From a virus, in IMG/VR virus record IMGVR_UViG_3300035704_000007, positions 1-64,000 of that record: DNA of 64,000 nt. The stretch is one strand, 5' to 3'. Positions 5,503 to 35,252 of the stretch are shown one piece after another (within the stretch, counting starts at the first letter, position 1; every line of letters begins with the position of its first letter). Below the pieces are notes generated by a model that did no database searches, was not told the origin of the DNA, and saw only the letters and a list, made by a program, of their open reading frames with translations. Both the position numbers and the translations under genes were made by a program.

Positions 5503-6290
5503 GGCGTCATTGCCTCACCAATGAAAAATGTGTAAGCAGGAGGAATCGCCTGAGCTAATTCGTCGCGGGTCATCCACGTAATATTCATTGCTCGCCGCCA
5601 GGCCGCAACCCCATCCTCGGGACGGCGGCGGATCAATTGCCCGTTAGTCCGGTCGCGAAGTCCGCTGTTACCCCCGCCCGCAACAGTCACGAAGCCGTCG
5701 CGGCCCACGCGCGCTCCTCTGGCCTGGCTTCGCTCTCCGTGTCCGTGAACGCTGACAAACCCTTCTTTGCCGATAACGGCGCCCCGCTCGGCCAGCGGTC
5801 TCCAGCAGCCTCCGGAGACGACGGTGCAGAACCCGTCGCTCCCCGCCTGATAATCGCCGTGCGCCAGATGAGGCGGCGCCAGGACCAGGCGGCTCGTCTC
5901 AAACAGCCGGTGCCGGAACACCTTGAGCCCGAACATCAACCCGCAGAGCATGACCGGGTTCTCCAGCGGCGCCCCGACGACGTTCTCGATCACCCAGGGG
6001 CAGCCGCTCGCCCGCAGCAGCGCCCGCACCGGCGCGACGAGATCGGGATACGTAAGACGCGCGGCGGCAGGCGTCGCGGCCGAAAACTTCTGACAGGGCG
6101 GTGAGCAGTGGATGAGATCGAAGTCGCCCGGCCTGACGGCCGCCAGAAACTCCAGGGCGTCCCCCTGCTGAAAACAGAATGGATAATTTCGCTGCGGGGC
6201 ATGATCGATGCCCAATATGTCAGTGAACCCGGCGCGATGGTACCCTACGGCGGCCCCTCCCGCGCCTGAAAAGCAATCAAGCAGTCTCAT
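5499..6290 (-). CDS. C5-cytosine DNA methyltransferase
   Basis: 263 aa. It transfers a methyl group from SAM to carbon 5 of cytosine in DNA. Visible motifs: I (LLDCFSGAGGAAVGY), IV with the catalytic cysteine (CSPPCQKF, C66), VI (WVIENV) and VIII-like (FRHRLFE). It is somewhat short, with a small target-recognition region. No restriction partner is adjacent, so self-protection against host restriction is likely. It is co-transcribed with the downstream small genes through 4-base overlaps. Confidence 0.92.
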   Translation of the reverse strand: MRLLDCFSGAGGAAVGYHRAGFTDILGIDHAPQRNYPFCFQQGDALEFLAAVRPGDFDLIHCSPPCQKFSAATPAAARLTYPDLVAPVRALLRASGCPWVIENVVGAPLENPVMLCGLMFGLKVFRHRLFETSRLVLAPPHLAHGDYQAGSDGFCTVVSGGCWRPLAERGAVIGKEGFVSVHGHGERSQARGARVGRDGFVTVAGGGNSGLRDRTNGQLIRRRPEDGVAAWRRAMNITWMTRDELAQAIPPAYTFFIGEAMTP

Positions 6291-7060
6291 AGCGCCACTC
6301 CCTCCCCCAAAAACCTCCGCAGGCGCCGGATGGCCTGTCGGTGATACTGGTGCGAGCGCGACTCCGAGCGGTCCAGCCGGCCGGCAATGGCTTTCAGCGT
6401 CAGCCCCTCCTCGTAATAGGCCCGAATGACCTCCCGCTCCGTCGCCGGCAGCCAGCGCACCGCCTGCCAGAGGATCTCGCTCTCGTTGTCCAAGAGGGCG
6501 ATCGCGTCGGGGCCGGGTGCCGGATCGGCCACCTGCTCGCCGACCCGCAAGGGGTCGAAGTCGGCATCCGGGTCGGCCTGGTTGATGAGCGCGTCGAGCG
6601 AGACCACGCTGCGACCCTTCGCCTGCCGCTGCAAAGCCTGGAGCGCCTCCAGGTCGAGCCCGAGGTGGGCGGCCGTCTCTGCGTCCTCGGGTTCCCTCCC
6701 GAGCGCGTGTACGAGGCTGTCAGCGGCTTGAGCGAGCACTTTCTGCTTCGTCCGCACCGAGCGGGGCGTCCAATCCTCCGCCCGTAAATATTCGAGCATC
6801 GCGCCCCGGATCATCGAGATACAAAAACTGCTGAACTTGACGCCCCGCGCCGGCTCGAACCTGTCGACCGCCCGGACGACGGCGATCATCCCTTCGGTCT
6901 GCAGGTCCTCCGGGTCGATGCGGACCGGCACGCGCGGGATCACGCGCGGGATCGTCAGGCGGACCAGGGGCAGGTGCGCCTCGATCAGCGTGGTGCGCGC
7001 CTGCTGGCAGTCGTGCGTTTTCAGGGCGTCCCAGAGGGGAGCGGTGTCAGCCGGTGTCAT
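6287..7060 (-). CDS. Phage sigma factor, sigma-70 family with regions 2, 3 and 4
   Basis: 257 aa from ATG 7060 (GAGG upstream; longer frames run into the previous gene). Region 2 lies at about residues 24-96 (DLQTEGMIAVVRAVDRFEP, VKFSSFCISMIRGAMLEYLR), region 3 at ~98-150 and region 4 at ~195-250 (LPATEREVIRAYYEEGLTLK, then AIAGRLDRSESRSHQYH). The arrangement resembles FliA/SigF/WhiG-type alternative sigma factors and lacks region 1.1. It would redirect host RNA polymerase to phage genes, perhaps the late virion operon. It overlaps the methyltransferase start by 4 bases. Confidence 0.88.
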   Translation of the reverse strand: MTPADTAPLWDALKTHDCQQARTTLIEAHLPLVRLTIPRVIPRVPVRIDPEDLQTEGMIAVVRAVDRFEPARGVKFSSFCISMIRGAMLEYLRAEDWTPRSVRTKQKVLAQAADSLVHALGREPEDAETAAHLGLDLEALQALQRQAKGRSVVSLDALINQADPDADFDPLRVGEQVADPAPGPDAIALLDNESEILWQAVRWLPATEREVIRAYYEEGLTLKAIAGRLDRSESRSHQYHRQAIRRLRRFLGEGVAL

Positions 7061-30778: not shown

Positions 30779-30862
30779 TTACCCCTTGCCTCTCGCGATA
30801 ATGATCAGCACAATCGCTATCGCCAGCGCGCACCATGTCAATTCGAGCGCATATTTACTCAC
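30779..30862 (-). CDS. 27-aa membrane peptide between NlpC/P60 and tail-tip genes
   Basis: GTG 30862 overlaps the TAG of the NlpC gene by one base, with GGGGG upstream. It has a single hydrophobic helix (WCALAIAIVLIII) and an RGKG tail. Small, but well placed and translationally coupled. Confidence 0.5.
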   Translation of the reverse strand: MSKYALELTWCALAIAIVLIIIARGKG

Positions 30863-31269
30863 TAATAGAGCCCCCGCCACCTATAGACGGCCGCCGTGTG
30901 CTCCTGCCAAAAAGCGTCGTAAGCGTGCTCGACCACGCAGCCGGCTCGCTCCCAGCTATGAATGAGTGTCCCTTCAGCCGTCGTCAAGCCCAGGTGAATA
31001 GCCTGCCCGGAGAACTGCAGCAGGACGACATCGCCGGCGTACGCCTCCCCGCAGACATGCTCCAGATGCTGCTGCAGATAAGCGAACACCTGTTCCGGGT
31101 GCACCGGCTGCGAGTAGCGCGGCATCGCGCCATCGGAGAGACCCACCGCCTGCGCGCAGGCCAGCAGTAAGCCGGCACAGTCGCAGCCGAGGCCCTTGAC
31201 CGGGACGCACTTCCTGAACGGCGTTCCCAGCCAGCTTCTCGCTTCGTCCACCAGATCCTGGCCGGTCAT
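30862..31269 (-). CDS. NlpC/P60-family tail assembly peptidase
   Basis: 135 aa. Catalytic motif GCDCAGLLLACAQ (C31), then QAIHLGL (H92) and LIHSWERAG (H104). In siphophages this protein acts at the tail tip, cutting cell-wall peptides or aiding tip assembly. Its first 17 codons have a diverged second copy at 32194-32244, on the far side of a plus-strand island, showing that the island entered at the 5' end of this gene. Confidence 0.87.
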   Translation of the reverse strand: MTGQDLVDEARSWLGTPFRKCVPVKGLGCDCAGLLLACAQAVGLSDGAMPRYSQPVHPEQVFAYLQQHLEHVCGEAYAGDVVLLQFSGQAIHLGLTTAEGTLIHSWERAGCVVEHAYDAFWQEHTAAVYRWRGLY

Positions 31270-31283
31270 CGACGAATCCCTAC

Positions 31284-31312
31284 TTGACGCGGCTGAATAT
31301 TTACGCTATAAT
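31284..31312 (+). promoter_or_regulatory. Consensus sigma-70 promoter of the plus-strand island
   Basis: TTGACG at 31284-31289, 17-base spacer, TATAAT at 31307-31312. This is the best host-type promoter in the window. It would transcribe the two island genes independently of the phage programme. Confidence 0.85.
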
Positions 31313-31352
31313 TCCCCTGTAAGCAGTGAGTAGTCAGCCAAGGAGAGAACCG

Positions 31353-31706
31353 ATGAGCGAGCATCTTTTGACCAGCCGGAGCCGGAACCTGGGCTATGGA
31401 TGGAGTAACCAGCCCTCGGGTAATGGCCCTCTGGCGATCTGCAAGCCGGCCGCGCCCGACGCAAGCGGCGGACTGCGCGCGGTCGAGAATGAGATCACGC
31501 GGGCGACGCGGTTCAACTCGGGCAACTTCCGGAGCGGCCAACTGTTTGTCGCTGGCAAGCCGGTCATCGCTCGCTGGGGCGCCTATGAGGATCAGACAGG
31601 CTGGCATCAGGGTTGGGTCTCGCTGGATCGCGGCTTTCTCGTCAATGAGTTGCTCGCCGAATTGCGCGACGGCGGCGCCGTGCGCGTGCGAACCAGAGAC
31701 GATTGA
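31353..31706 (+). CDS. Island protein of unknown function (anti-CRISPR-position candidate)
   Basis: 117 aa from ATG 31353 with AAGGAGAGAACCG upstream. No recognised domain; the middle has TRFNSGNFRSGQLFVAGKPV and WHQGWVSLDRGFLVNELLAE. Opposite in strand to all virion genes, it is driven by a host-type promoter and followed by a ribbon-helix-helix gene. This resembles the layout of phage morons and anti-CRISPR operons; function is inference only. Confidence 0.6.
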   Translation: MSEHLLTSRSRNLGYGWSNQPSGNGPLAICKPAAPDASGGLRAVENEITRATRFNSGNFRSGQLFVAGKPVIARWGAYEDQTGWHQGWVSLDRGFLVNELLAELRDGGAVRVRTRDD

Positions 31707-31707
31707 G

Positions 31708-32121
31708 ATGAAATTCCTTCCCTGGTTCCGCAAGGACCTGGAGGCGGCGCTGACGATCATCCAGGCTCGCGCTCCCGGTCGGGCGCATGAGATCCAACAG
31801 TTCCGCAAGGCGCTCGCGAATGAGAGCGGCATCCTGCCCAAGCGGTTCGAGGTGCTGCTTGGCAACGCGATGGGTGGCCATGAGCGACACGCCTTCACCG
31901 AGGAGGAGAAGCGCGAACTGGGACAAACGCTCGTTCGTCTCGAAGAATACTGCCGCGACGGTCGCCCCGGTCCCAAGGTGCGCGGCAATGAATATCGGCT
32001 CATGGTCTATCTCACGAAGGCAGAGAATGAGGCACTGGTAGAATACTGCGACCGCCAGAATACGACGCGCTCCGCGACGGTCCGCGCCGCTCTGCGCTGC
32101 CTGCTGGAGCGTGATCCTTGA
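31708..32121 (+). CDS. Protein with C-terminal ribbon-helix-helix (Aca-like position)
   Basis: 137 aa, starting one base after the upstream stop. The C-terminal ~45 residues (YRLMVYLTKAENEALVEYCD, then RQNTTRSATVRAALRCLLE) fit a ribbon-helix-helix DNA-binding domain. The N-terminal half is helical (KRFEVLLGNAMGGHERHAFT). Probably an autoregulator of the island; it could instead be the antitoxin half of a pair. Confidence 0.65.
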   Translation: MKFLPWFRKDLEAALTIIQARAPGRAHEIQQFRKALANESGILPKRFEVLLGNAMGGHERHAFTEEEKRELGQTLVRLEEYCRDGRPGPKVRGNEYRLMVYLTKAENEALVEYCDRQNTTRSATVRAALRCLLERDP

Positions 32122-32127
32122 GCCTTT

Positions 32128-32205
32128 CCCTTCCCCACCGCCGTGGGGGTGAACCGACCGTGCTCCCGATCCCGCTTCCTTCCCCACAACAGTGGGGTCG
32201 CCGAT
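32128..32205 (+). CRISPR. Two solitary CRISPR-repeat-like hairpins at the island end
   Basis: Unit 1 (32128-32156): TTCCCCAC-CGCC-GTGGGGG followed by TGAACCG, matching the shape and 3' end of type I-E repeats (C-run, stem, G-run, TGAACCG). Unit 2 (about 32177-32205): TTCCCCAC-AACA-GTGGGG, then a degenerate end. The period is 49 bases, too short for a normal I-E repeat-spacer, and there are no cas genes. They follow the island's last stop by a few bases and may also act as terminators. Confidence 0.45.
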
Positions 32206-32244
32206 CCATCGCCGCGCTTCGTCAACCAGATCCTGTCCGGTCAT
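32194..32244 (-). pseudogene. Displaced 5' end of an NlpC/P60 gene
   Basis: Starting at ATG 32244, which overlaps the upstream stop (ATGA), 17 codons read MTGQDLVDEARRWIGDP. They match the first residues of the intact NlpC/P60 protein (MTGQDLVDEARSWLGTP); about 38 of the first 50 bases agree by eye. The frame then runs into the CRISPR-like hairpins. It marks the original gene start before the island was inserted. Confidence 0.75.
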
Positions 32245-32738
32245 CTCCGGCCCCTGGCGCGCCGCACCGCCTGCCCCACCGCCGGCGCGGAGCGCCCCAG
32301 CGCCCGCGCGCACTCCGCCTGCGTCTCCTGCCGGTAGGCCAACCGCCGCAGAACCTGTCGCTGCAGCGGCGACAGCCCCGCCAGCAGCGCCTCTGCCTCC
32401 AGCCGGTCCAAGAGTGCCGCTTCAAACGACGGCGCGGCCGGCTCGAACGGCTCGGCCTCGTCGCCATCCTCCCTGCGACTCCCGATCTGCGAGAACGGGA
32501 TCGCCGCCGGCCGCGCCTCGCCCTGCCGGTACGCCTGCCCGAGCCAGCGGCGGAACCATTCCGTGGGCGCCCGCTCGGCGGCGAGCCACGCGCCGTGCAG
32601 GCCCGCGCGCTGGTAGCCACGCCACGCCTCCAGGTGGGCTTGGGATCTGATATCCTGCCATTCCGGGTGAGCACTCCAGCGCGGGCCGAGACAGGCCAGC
32701 ACCAGGTTCATGAGACGCGGCCCCGGATCCGCAGACAT
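32241..32738 (-). CDS. ECF-like sigma/region-4 protein
   Basis: 165 aa from ATG 32738 (TGATG overlap). WQDIRSQAHLEAWRGYQRAG resembles sigma region 2. LSPLQRQVLRRLAYRQETQA, then ECARALGRSAPAVGQAVRRA, is a clear region-4-type HTH. The linker is acidic. It lies within the tail cluster, just upstream of NlpC/P60. A second possible reader of the GGAAC-type elements; it could instead be a structural-region regulator. Confidence 0.6.
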   Translation of the reverse strand: MSADPGPRLMNLVLACLGPRWSAHPEWQDIRSQAHLEAWRGYQRAGLHGAWLAAERAPTEWFRRWLGQAYRQGEARPAAIPFSQIGSRREDGDEAEPFEPAAPSFEAALLDRLEAEALLAGLSPLQRQVLRRLAYRQETQAECARALGRSAPAVGQAVRRARGRR

Positions 32739-33186: not shown

Positions 33187-34293
33187 CTAGCCACGGCCTC
33201 TTAAAAATATACTGTCAAGACCTGGAATTAAATTCTCCGCTCTATAATTTATGCTGTTGGCAAACCTGCTATCACACACCCCCAGAGTGCGGTCACAGCC
33301 GGCCGTCAGGAGCGCCGTGTCGCCCGGCGCGCAGGCAAACGGAAACGCCTCCTGCAGGTCGAGGGTCGCCTGGCCAAAGATCGGGACCGTGTGCGCCTTC
33401 ACCTCACGCGAGATGCCGGCATTGAGGCCGCTCGTGAAGCTGACGGTCCCGTAGGAGTAGAATCCTGGGGGCGTAATGTCGCTGTTGAAGACGAGCCGCT
33501 GCGAGGTCGAGCCGGGCGTCAGACCGGCGCTCAAGAGCGGGCGCGTGAACTGGTAGCCGATGAACCCCGCCCCGCCAAACACCGGGTAGGCGCTCGTGTC
33601 GATCTGCACCGCAAAGGTGGTGCTGGTCGGCGCGGGAGACGCCAGCACGGGCTGCACCTGCCCATTCAGCAGCACCATTCCGGTCACGTCGGTAAAGAAC
33701 GCCCCGTCTCCTGCTATCCGTCCGTGTGCCGTCGCGGTGGTGATGACCGCCGGGTTGGTCTGGGTGATGGCCGAGATGGCTACCGCCGTCAGCTTCACTT
33801 TGCATCTGGTGTCACCGAGTGCAAAGACGCGACAGGTGCCCGATGTCTGCTCGCCGATCTGCTGGGTGAGCCGGCTGGAGAGCGCGCGGATCTCGGCGGT
33901 GTAGCCGCCGTCGCTGTATTGAAGATTGCCAATGTAGCCCGTGCAGAGAAGAATTCTGCTGACCAGCGGGCTTTCAGCCCAATTCACCTGAAACAATTCG
34001 ACGCTCGCCTGGTCATAGAGGCCCGCCAAAAGATCGGCGTCCCGAATGAACGAGCTGCTCAACGTGCCGTCGATACTCAAATTGTCCACGCCCGACCCTT
34101 GTGACACGCGAAGCGCCGTCGCGTCGATGCCGTCCAGGGTGTGATAGACCGTGCCCGCGAAGGTCAGATCCCGGTCAAAGGTCGTCAGGCCCAACACCAC
34201 GCCCGCGTTCGTGGTGATCTTCATGCAAGTGGCTAGGGTGAGCACACTACCGCCGATGTGCGTCAGTAACGGGGAGGGGATTGTCCTGCTCAT
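33187..34293 (-). CDS. DUF2163/BR0599-family tail protein
   Basis: 368 aa. The N-terminus (RTIPSPLLTHIGGSVLTLAT, CMKITTNAGVVLGLTTFDRD) is diagnostic of phage tail proteins with DUF2163, and the C-terminus (CDRTLGVCDSRFANSINYRA) of the BR0599 family. An inserted segment lies at ~175-235. In GTA-like and siphophage tails this protein sits between the distal tail protein and NlpC/P60. Confidence 0.85.
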   Translation of the reverse strand: MSRTIPSPLLTHIGGSVLTLATCMKITTNAGVVLGLTTFDRDLTFAGTVYHTLDGIDATALRVSQGSGVDNLSIDGTLSSSFIRDADLLAGLYDQASVELFQVNWAESPLVSRILLCTGYIGNLQYSDGGYTAEIRALSSRLTQQIGEQTSGTCRVFALGDTRCKVKLTAVAISAITQTNPAVITTATAHGRIAGDGAFFTDVTGMVLLNGQVQPVLASPAPTSTTFAVQIDTSAYPVFGGAGFIGYQFTRPLLSAGLTPGSTSQRLVFNSDITPPGFYSYGTVSFTSGLNAGISREVKAHTVPIFGQATLDLQEAFPFACAPGDTALLTAGCDRTLGVCDSRFANSINYRAENLIPGLDSIFLRGRG

Positions 34294-34308
34294 GCCGTCC
34301 CCCAGGAA

Positions 34309-34334
34309 GGAAAAGCGCGGCTGCTTGGAGAACT
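34309..34334 (+). promoter_or_regulatory. GGAAA-N17-AACT leader element before an HNH gene
   Basis: GGAAA 34309-34313, 17 bases ending CTGCTTGGAG, AACT 34331-34334. The HNH start is 18 bases further on. Shares CTGCTTGG with 42631. Confidence 0.5.
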
Positions 34335-34352
34335 AGTCAGCGGGGGAAGTTG

Positions 34353-35252
34353 ATGAGAACACTGTCTGAGACGCATGTCGCCCGCTTCTGGTCTCGCGTT
34401 GATATTCATTGCCCGAACGGCTGCTGGCTCTGGACTGCCGGGAAAACGGTCGACGGGCATGGACGCTTCTTTGACGGTGTGAGTGAGCGCATGTCCCATC
34501 GCATAGCATGGGAGATGATGCGCGGGGAGATTGAGCCGGGACTTCTTGTTTGTCACGACTGTCCAGGTGGAGACGTGCCTGCCTGTGTAAACCCGTCTCA
34601 CATGTTCTTGGGCACGATATCGGAAAATACCATGGACCGCTGCCGCAAAGGAAGGACAGCACGAGGAGACCGCAACGGCTCTCATCAGGCGGCGGTCAGG
34701 CGCAGGCTGGGGCTGCCACCACAGCCGCCAGGGCGCGGACGCGGATGGAACCGAAAGCTGGCTCCTACGGAGGCTGACGTTCAACGCTTTTGGGAGAAGG
34801 TGGCCGTCGGGGATGTTGATGATTGCTGGCAATGGCAACCTGTGACAGACAGCGACGGCTACGGACGGATGCGCTGGGATGGCCATTACGTTCGAGCGAA
34901 CCGAATCGCGTGGATGATTGCCAGAGGCGCCATTCCTACCGGTCTCTGGGTCTTGCACCGCTGTGATAATCCCCCCTGCTGTAATCCGTCGCACCTCTTT
35001 CTTGGCACGTCTCAAGATAACGTCGCCGACAAAATGTCTAAGCATCGCCAATCGCGAGGTGAACGGCACCGTTCGAGTTTTAGACCGGGTCATAACCAGG
35101 GCGAGCGGAATGGAAGAGCCAAGCTCACGCCTGAAGACGTAGCGAATATTAGGTGTCTGGCCAACCTGCTGAGTGCGCCAGAGGTCGGCAGGATCTACGG
35201 AATTGCCAAGCCGAATGTCTATCGGATCTGGGATGGCAGTGGTTGGAAATAA
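34353..35252 (+). CDS. Double-domain His-Me finger (HNH_3) homing endonuclease
   Basis: 299 aa from ATG 34353 (GGGGGAAG upstream). Two tandem HNH_3/zinc-bound homing domains: LVCHDCPGGDVPACVNPSHM, then FLGTISENTMDRCRKGR (first copy); VLHRCDNPPCCNPSHLFLGT, then SQDNVADKMSKHRQSRG (second copy). A C-terminal helix-turn-helix follows (LTPEDVANIRCLANLLSAPE, VGRIYGIAKPNVYRIW). The tandem form suggests internal duplication. It is antisense to the flanking tail genes. Confidence 0.88.
   Translation: MRTLSETHVARFWSRVDIHCPNGCWLWTAGKTVDGHGRFFDGVSERMSHRIAWEMMRGEIEPGLLVCHDCPGGDVPACVNPSHMFLGTISENTMDRCRKGRTARGDRNGSHQAAVRRRLGLPPQPPGRGRGWNRKLAPTEADVQRFWEKVAVGDVDDCWQWQPVTDSDGYGRMRWDGHYVRANRIAWMIARGAIPTGLWVLHRCDNPPCCNPSHLFLGTSQDNVADKMSKHRQSRGERHRSSFRPGHNQGERNGRAKLTPEDVANIRCLANLLSAPEVGRIYGIAKPNVYRIWDGSGWK

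Follow-up and report, generated by a model that had tools for sequence, protein, structure and literature searches.

Island in the Tail Operon

Between approximately positions 31270 and 32196 of the window (the whole stretch of 64,000 nucleotides analysed here, which makes up most of a virus record of 66,945 bp), a plus-strand island interrupts a minus-strand tail operon, as a sequence-only reading of this DNA had already described. Within it lie the strongest sigma-70 site of the whole phage, two small genes, and two CRISPR-like units. The features of the island and its flanks are:

30862-31269 (-), intact NlpC/P60-like tail gene, next in the tail operon (Pfam NLPC_P60, E = 1.8e-6; PHROG tail)
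31284-31312 (+), sigma-70 promoter, TTGACG-17 bp-TATAAT (11/12 match)
31353-31706 (+), gene 1, an orphan of 117 aa (codon usage), candidate anti-defence protein, a putative function
31708-32121 (+), gene 2, 137 aa (codon usage; weak profile matches), with a weak C-terminal ribbon-helix-helix, candidate operon regulator
32129-32156 (+), CRISPR unit 1, a complete type I-E-type repeat: hairpin CCCCAC-CGCC-GTGGGG followed by the handle GTGAACCG
32157-32177 (+), spacer of 21 nt, ACCGTGCTCCCGATCCCGCTT
32178-32197 (+), CRISPR unit 2, repeat hairpin CCTTCCCCACAACAGTGGGG with the handle missing, 49 bp after unit 1 (repeat-like unit as a whole 32178-32205)
32198-32244 (-), remnant at the other flank of the island, duplicating the NlpC/P60-like tail gene at its 5' end (aligned with 31269-31226)

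The phage has a GC content of 64.4%. Besides capsid, portal, tape-measure, and tail genes it has an integrase gene and a sigma factor of its own, which marks it as a temperate, tailed bacteriophage. A phage-encoded sigma-70 family factor with regions 2, 3, and 4 is found at 6287-7060 (-), and a further protein, which has sigma region 4 and is encoded at 32241-32711 (-), adjoins the island within the tail operon. The same operon holds a second plus-strand insertion at 34281-35252 (+), a 323-aa HNH_3 homing-endonuclease-like gene.

Judged by its sequence, the island is an insertion into the tail operon. The remnant is a diverged second copy of the first 44 bases of the NlpC/P60-like gene (gene start 31269), and it overlaps the end of the gene upstream in ATGA, a stop/start overlap of the usual tightly packed kind. 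In alignments, homology to the remnant stops at the base of the unit 2 hairpin, which fixes the right edge of the island there. The NlpC-like gene of a relative (L002) overlaps its upstream tail gene with nothing between the two. The diverged duplicate of the NlpC/P60 5' end (31226-31269 and 32198-32244), absent from the sequence-only description, is a footprint of moron acquisition. Relatives of the island itself were not found in the collections searched.

Promoter and Genes of the Island

The near-consensus promoter proposed earlier holds up well: it is the sole site of the 11/12 level in 2.7 kb, where shuffled sequences give 0.3. Both genes behind it score as coding. Gene 1 has no match in Pfam, PADLOC, NCBIfam, PDB, or viral contigs and none of significance in PHROGs, in keeping with its earlier description as an orphan. 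The ribbon-helix-helix end ascribed to gene 2 is present as a resemblance, albeit a weak one, with the C-terminus reaching E = 0.075 against Pfam RHH_1, below the cut-off, and E = 1.3e-3 against a PHROG repressor and E = 4.6e-3 against NCBIfam aCcr1. No relatives of gene 2 were found in viral contigs or plasmids. A search for known acr or aca homologues, which had been suggested as a check of an anti-CRISPR role, returned no match for the island genes in Pfam, PADLOC, or NCBIfam. AlphaFold models of the two proteins have pLDDT values of 42 and 51, too low for a fold search. From their layout, genes 1 and 2 were probably inherited together, as an anti-defence moron and the regulator that goes with it.

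A Complete Type I-E Repeat

Unit 1 reads CCTTCCCCACCGCCGTGGGG|GTGAACCG, the bar marking the expected cut, which we take to be made by Cas6e at this position as in type I-E systems. It is intergenic (coding statistics do not pick the long antisense ORF that spans it), has the same orientation as the operon genes, and starts 7 nt beyond the gene 2 stop. When up to 3 mismatches are tolerated, TTCCCCACNNNNGTGGGGGTGAACCG occurs once in the window and in none of 100 shuffles, and the chance expectation for unit 1 in the phage is ~8e-9 by an order-1 Markov estimate. When 2.9 million viral contigs were scanned for CCCCACNNNNGTGGGGGTGAACCG, 22 stretches were recovered, roughly half of which are arrays that have the type I-E period of 61/62 bp; a control pattern with a scrambled handle had no matches in the same contigs. 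Unit 1 is identical to repeats of 61/62-bp arrays at up to 24 of 27 positions. One sequenced genome carries 34 repeats with the same stem and handle, with a Cas6e gene on the same contig. The loop of unit 1, CGCC, is unlike that of every array seen. That unit 1 is a true type I-E repeat is well supported by these sequence comparisons, and the hairpin shape noted in the sequence-only reading is, for this unit, confirmed by the I-E stem and 8-nt handle.

The exact 24-nt core was not found in any host array among 84,980 species genomes. Its sole match there was rejected as a host repeat: it lies inside a coding sequence, a transporter-like gene of a Methanomethylophilaceae MAG (L044, 3209-3232, minus strand), and is probably a chance match. 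The 34 repeats with Cas6e mentioned above, a true I-E array with the same stem and handle, are on another contig of this MAG (G001 C130).

The Second Hairpin and the Spacer

The repeats had been called solitary, which proves wrong: they form a doublet around a 21-nt spacer. The earlier placement of the hairpins a few bases from the last stop, with a period of 49 bases, is accurate, and of the two I-E-type repeats then proposed unit 1 is whole and unit 2 is a hairpin only. Over the first 19 nt, unit 2 agrees with unit 1 at 16 positions, with a perfect stem and a different loop, and the GTGAACCG handle is absent. A second TTCCCCACNNNNGTGGGG within 100 nt is expected by chance at only ~4e-7 (order-1 Markov estimate). 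Taken together with the I-E identity of the repeat, this leads us to read the pair as a real, truncated one-spacer array. The spacer is 11 nt short of the I-E standard of ~32.

Unit 2 retains exactly the part that forms the 3' hairpin of a crRNA, and what it lacks is what Cas6e would remove. Hairpins kept and handle bases lost are likewise seen in the last repeats of other viral mini-arrays (L022, L025/L043, L027, L038), a pattern expected of a functional terminal repeat; the truncation may also be simply a recombination junction. The full RNA of 98 nt folds no better than its shuffles, its best fold pairing the spacer with the 3' arm of hairpin 2, while in the processed 49-mer the predicted fold retains hairpin 2.

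No spacer target was found above shuffled spacers in the phage, for which reason self-targeting or autorepression by the spacer was rejected. The 2.9 million viral contigs contained no target either, in a search that left every sixth base free.

That doublets with short spacers form a common class was rejected, as none with full stems was found. A looser match to the short period came from L034 only, with a period of 54 bp on a contig with several other CRISPR-like repeats. I-E-type units are scattered over that 86-kb 'viral' contig (IMGVR_UViG_3300022562_001969; L034, L035), one pair having the 54-bp period; in L030 and L035 a unit stands 9 nt ahead of a start codon. The viral contigs L022 (8636-8730) and L025 and L043 (minus strand) have one intact I-E repeat and, 61-63 bp on, a unit whose hairpin is whole and whose handle has decayed. 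These pairs are possibly of the same kind as the phage doublet, with a spacer of full length.

Cas Genes and Host

A search of the phage for Cas6e was negative, and no CRISPR-cas effector family was matched among the ~30 phage ORFs searched in Pfam and/or PHROGs; to this extent the earlier statement that cas genes are missing is correct. A TnpB-like gene of the phage (OrfB_IS605; 55323-56459, plus strand) matched the Cas12f1-like TNB domain. Cas6e was likewise unmatched in all 13 viral records tested, 12 of which carry I-E-type units.

The terminase TerL is 50% like those of Methanothermobacter phages. An archaeal host, suggested by this likeness, was rejected because the phage carries its own sigma factor; 292 genomes of the phylum to which the Methanomethylophilaceae MAG belongs gave no match to the phage capsid protein. 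Close phage relatives that could point to the host were not found above 60% identity.

A Putative Decoy crRNA

The doublet is, we think with moderate confidence, a phage-borne fragment of a type I-E array acting as a putative decoy crRNA, in the manner of a Racr. The elements follow one another on the operon strand as genes, repeat, 21-nt spacer, and half repeat. From the island promoter a single transcript would run through both genes and end in the repeat, spacer, and half repeat as its 3' end. Host Cas6e would then cut after both hairpins and release a crRNA of 49 nt (8+21+20), made up of the 5' handle GUGAACCG, the 21-nt spacer, and a 3' hairpin that would hold Cas6e. With both crRNA ends present, Cas5e, Cas7e, and Cas6e could be loaded, and a short crRNA with no target in the phage would be expected to yield small, aimless Cascades, drawing host Cas proteins off their real guides.

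Cascades of E. coli with short spacers are reportedly capable of interference, to go by a 2016 title by Kuznedelov, so shortness alone may not disarm the decoy. In one type I-B system, interference and priming are lost once spacers shrink to 24 nt or fewer, and binding is still possible (PMC10989794). Two I-E Racrs inhibited a type I-E system, and a plain non-targeting crRNA already lowered interference (PMC10651486). A decoy best explains the doublet because a targetless crRNA would compete with guides, and interference was lowered by a non-targeting crRNA and by I-E Racrs.

The main functional rival is a targeted guide that does not cut, in which the short crRNA would take host Cascade to a host sequence, such as the promoter of a cas or other defence gene, for repression like that by CreR or CreA, or would exclude a rival phage. 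Both crRNA ends are present in the doublet, unlike in the RacrIF1 product, which has no 5' handle (PMC10651486); type I-B spacers of 21-24 nt repress well with no cutting (PMC10989794), and cas operons are repressed by CreR RNAs (PMC12737573). Both target searches, in the phage and in the viral contigs, came back empty, and we regard a targeted guide as quite unlikely. A non-functional passenger, a leader-distal scrap of a host array brought along with the moron, its spacer shrunken and its last repeat cut at the junction, is another reading that we consider rather unlikely, if somewhat less so. It would account for the odd spacer length and for the start of the remnant homology at the base of hairpin 2, where the joining may have cut unit 2, and the last repeats of arrays decay anyway; it sits poorly with the intact stem and handle of unit 1, with a perfect stem in unit 2 despite a different loop, and with the position of the doublet on the coding strand, immediately past the last stop of the operon.

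Two further readings take the hairpins out of the CRISPR context. The sequence-only reading had set ordinary bidirectional terminators against itself, and two GC-rich hairpins closing the island would indeed stand at the end of a moron, the usual place of a terminator. Neither hairpin has a T-tract on either strand, however, for which reason this reading was rejected as highly improbable; a terminator scan finds nothing, and the GTGAACCG handle, specific to CRISPR hairpins in viral DNA, is left unexplained. Operator sites for the ribbon-helix-helix protein are even harder to credit: the units are inverted repeats that resemble each other and neighbour a gene whose product may bind DNA, but they lie ~820 bp downstream of the promoter, and no copy occurs near the promoter.

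If the decoy works as proposed, short but complete crRNAs are a further means by which phages disarm type I-E immunity, and the neighbouring orphan gene becomes a new anti-CRISPR candidate. A bolder proposal, which we put forward tentatively and consider doubtful, is that complete crRNAs with short spacers form a class of phage anti-CRISPR RNA between Racrs and mini-arrays, which would leave host Cascade undersized, either a dud or a non-cutting cas repressor, and would be carried on one message with a protein anti-defence gene.

Relation to Known Systems

Racrs are solitary repeat units, among them RacrIE1, RacrIE2, and that of the acrIC5-racrIC1 operon (Camara-Wilpert et al. 2023, PMC10651486). 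The doublet is like them in being phage mimicry of a repeat, intergenic in unit 1, a few nucleotides after a co-directional small gene, and with no Cas6e gene. In acrIC5-racrIC1, a proven Racr, the RNA follows the acr gene at 11 nt (PMC10651486), against 7 nt past the protein gene in the island. This bicistronic operon is also a precedent for an RNA sharing the promoter of a protein gene; in the island the operon promoter lies ~820 bp upstream of the doublet and not within 250 bp of it. The differences are that a Racr is one unit whereas the doublet has two units 49 bp apart, that its product would have a 5' handle plus a 3' hairpin, and that no known acr gene stands beside it. Solitary repeat units (SRUs) are defined by at least 90% identity over at least 90% of the length, with no second repeat-like match (>70%) within 100 bp; unit 1 reaches 24/27, or 89%, against the best of 10 array repeats, and unit 2 follows at +49 bp with 16/19 identity over the hairpin half. 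RNA anti-CRISPRs are a recent discovery, and doublet-shaped elements would probably be missed by the published finder, because it was written to discard matches that have another partial repeat no more than 100 bp away (PMC10651486).

Mini-CRISPR arrays borne by viruses (Medvedeva et al. 2019, PMC6858448; reviewed in PMC11656645) share with the doublet two repeats, one spacer, and no Cas6e gene. They differ from it in that its spacer has 21 nt instead of ~32, its second repeat is truncated, and no leader is seen. Mini-arrays should have a spacer of normal length between complete repeats and, typically, a spacer match to a related virus; for the doublet, the search gave 0 matches in 2.9 million viral contigs, from which close relatives may be missing. 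CreA and CreR (PMC9458426, PMC12737573) resemble the doublet in having one or two repeats, ectopic and in part degenerate, by which Cascade could be guided. Their spacers match a promoter next to a PAM; the doublet is in a phage and matches no promoter of that phage's genome. The first repeat is the more degenerate in CreA, the second in the phage doublet.

Like an acr-aca operon, the island places a small orphan gene and one for a likely DNA-binding protein behind a single strong promoter; it differs in having no known acr and in a regulator that is ribbon-helix-helix-like at best, not helix-turn-helix, the type of protein as which known Aca regulators are described (PMC9410906). Of the anti-CRISPR island first proposed, the CRISPR-repeat reading and a layout like that of acrIC5-racrIC1 therefore stand, and the acr operon stays putative, its orphan matching no family. 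Being neither solitary nor equipped with a full spacer or a viral target, the doublet appears Racr-like in its putative action and would take a place between the Racr and mini-array classes.
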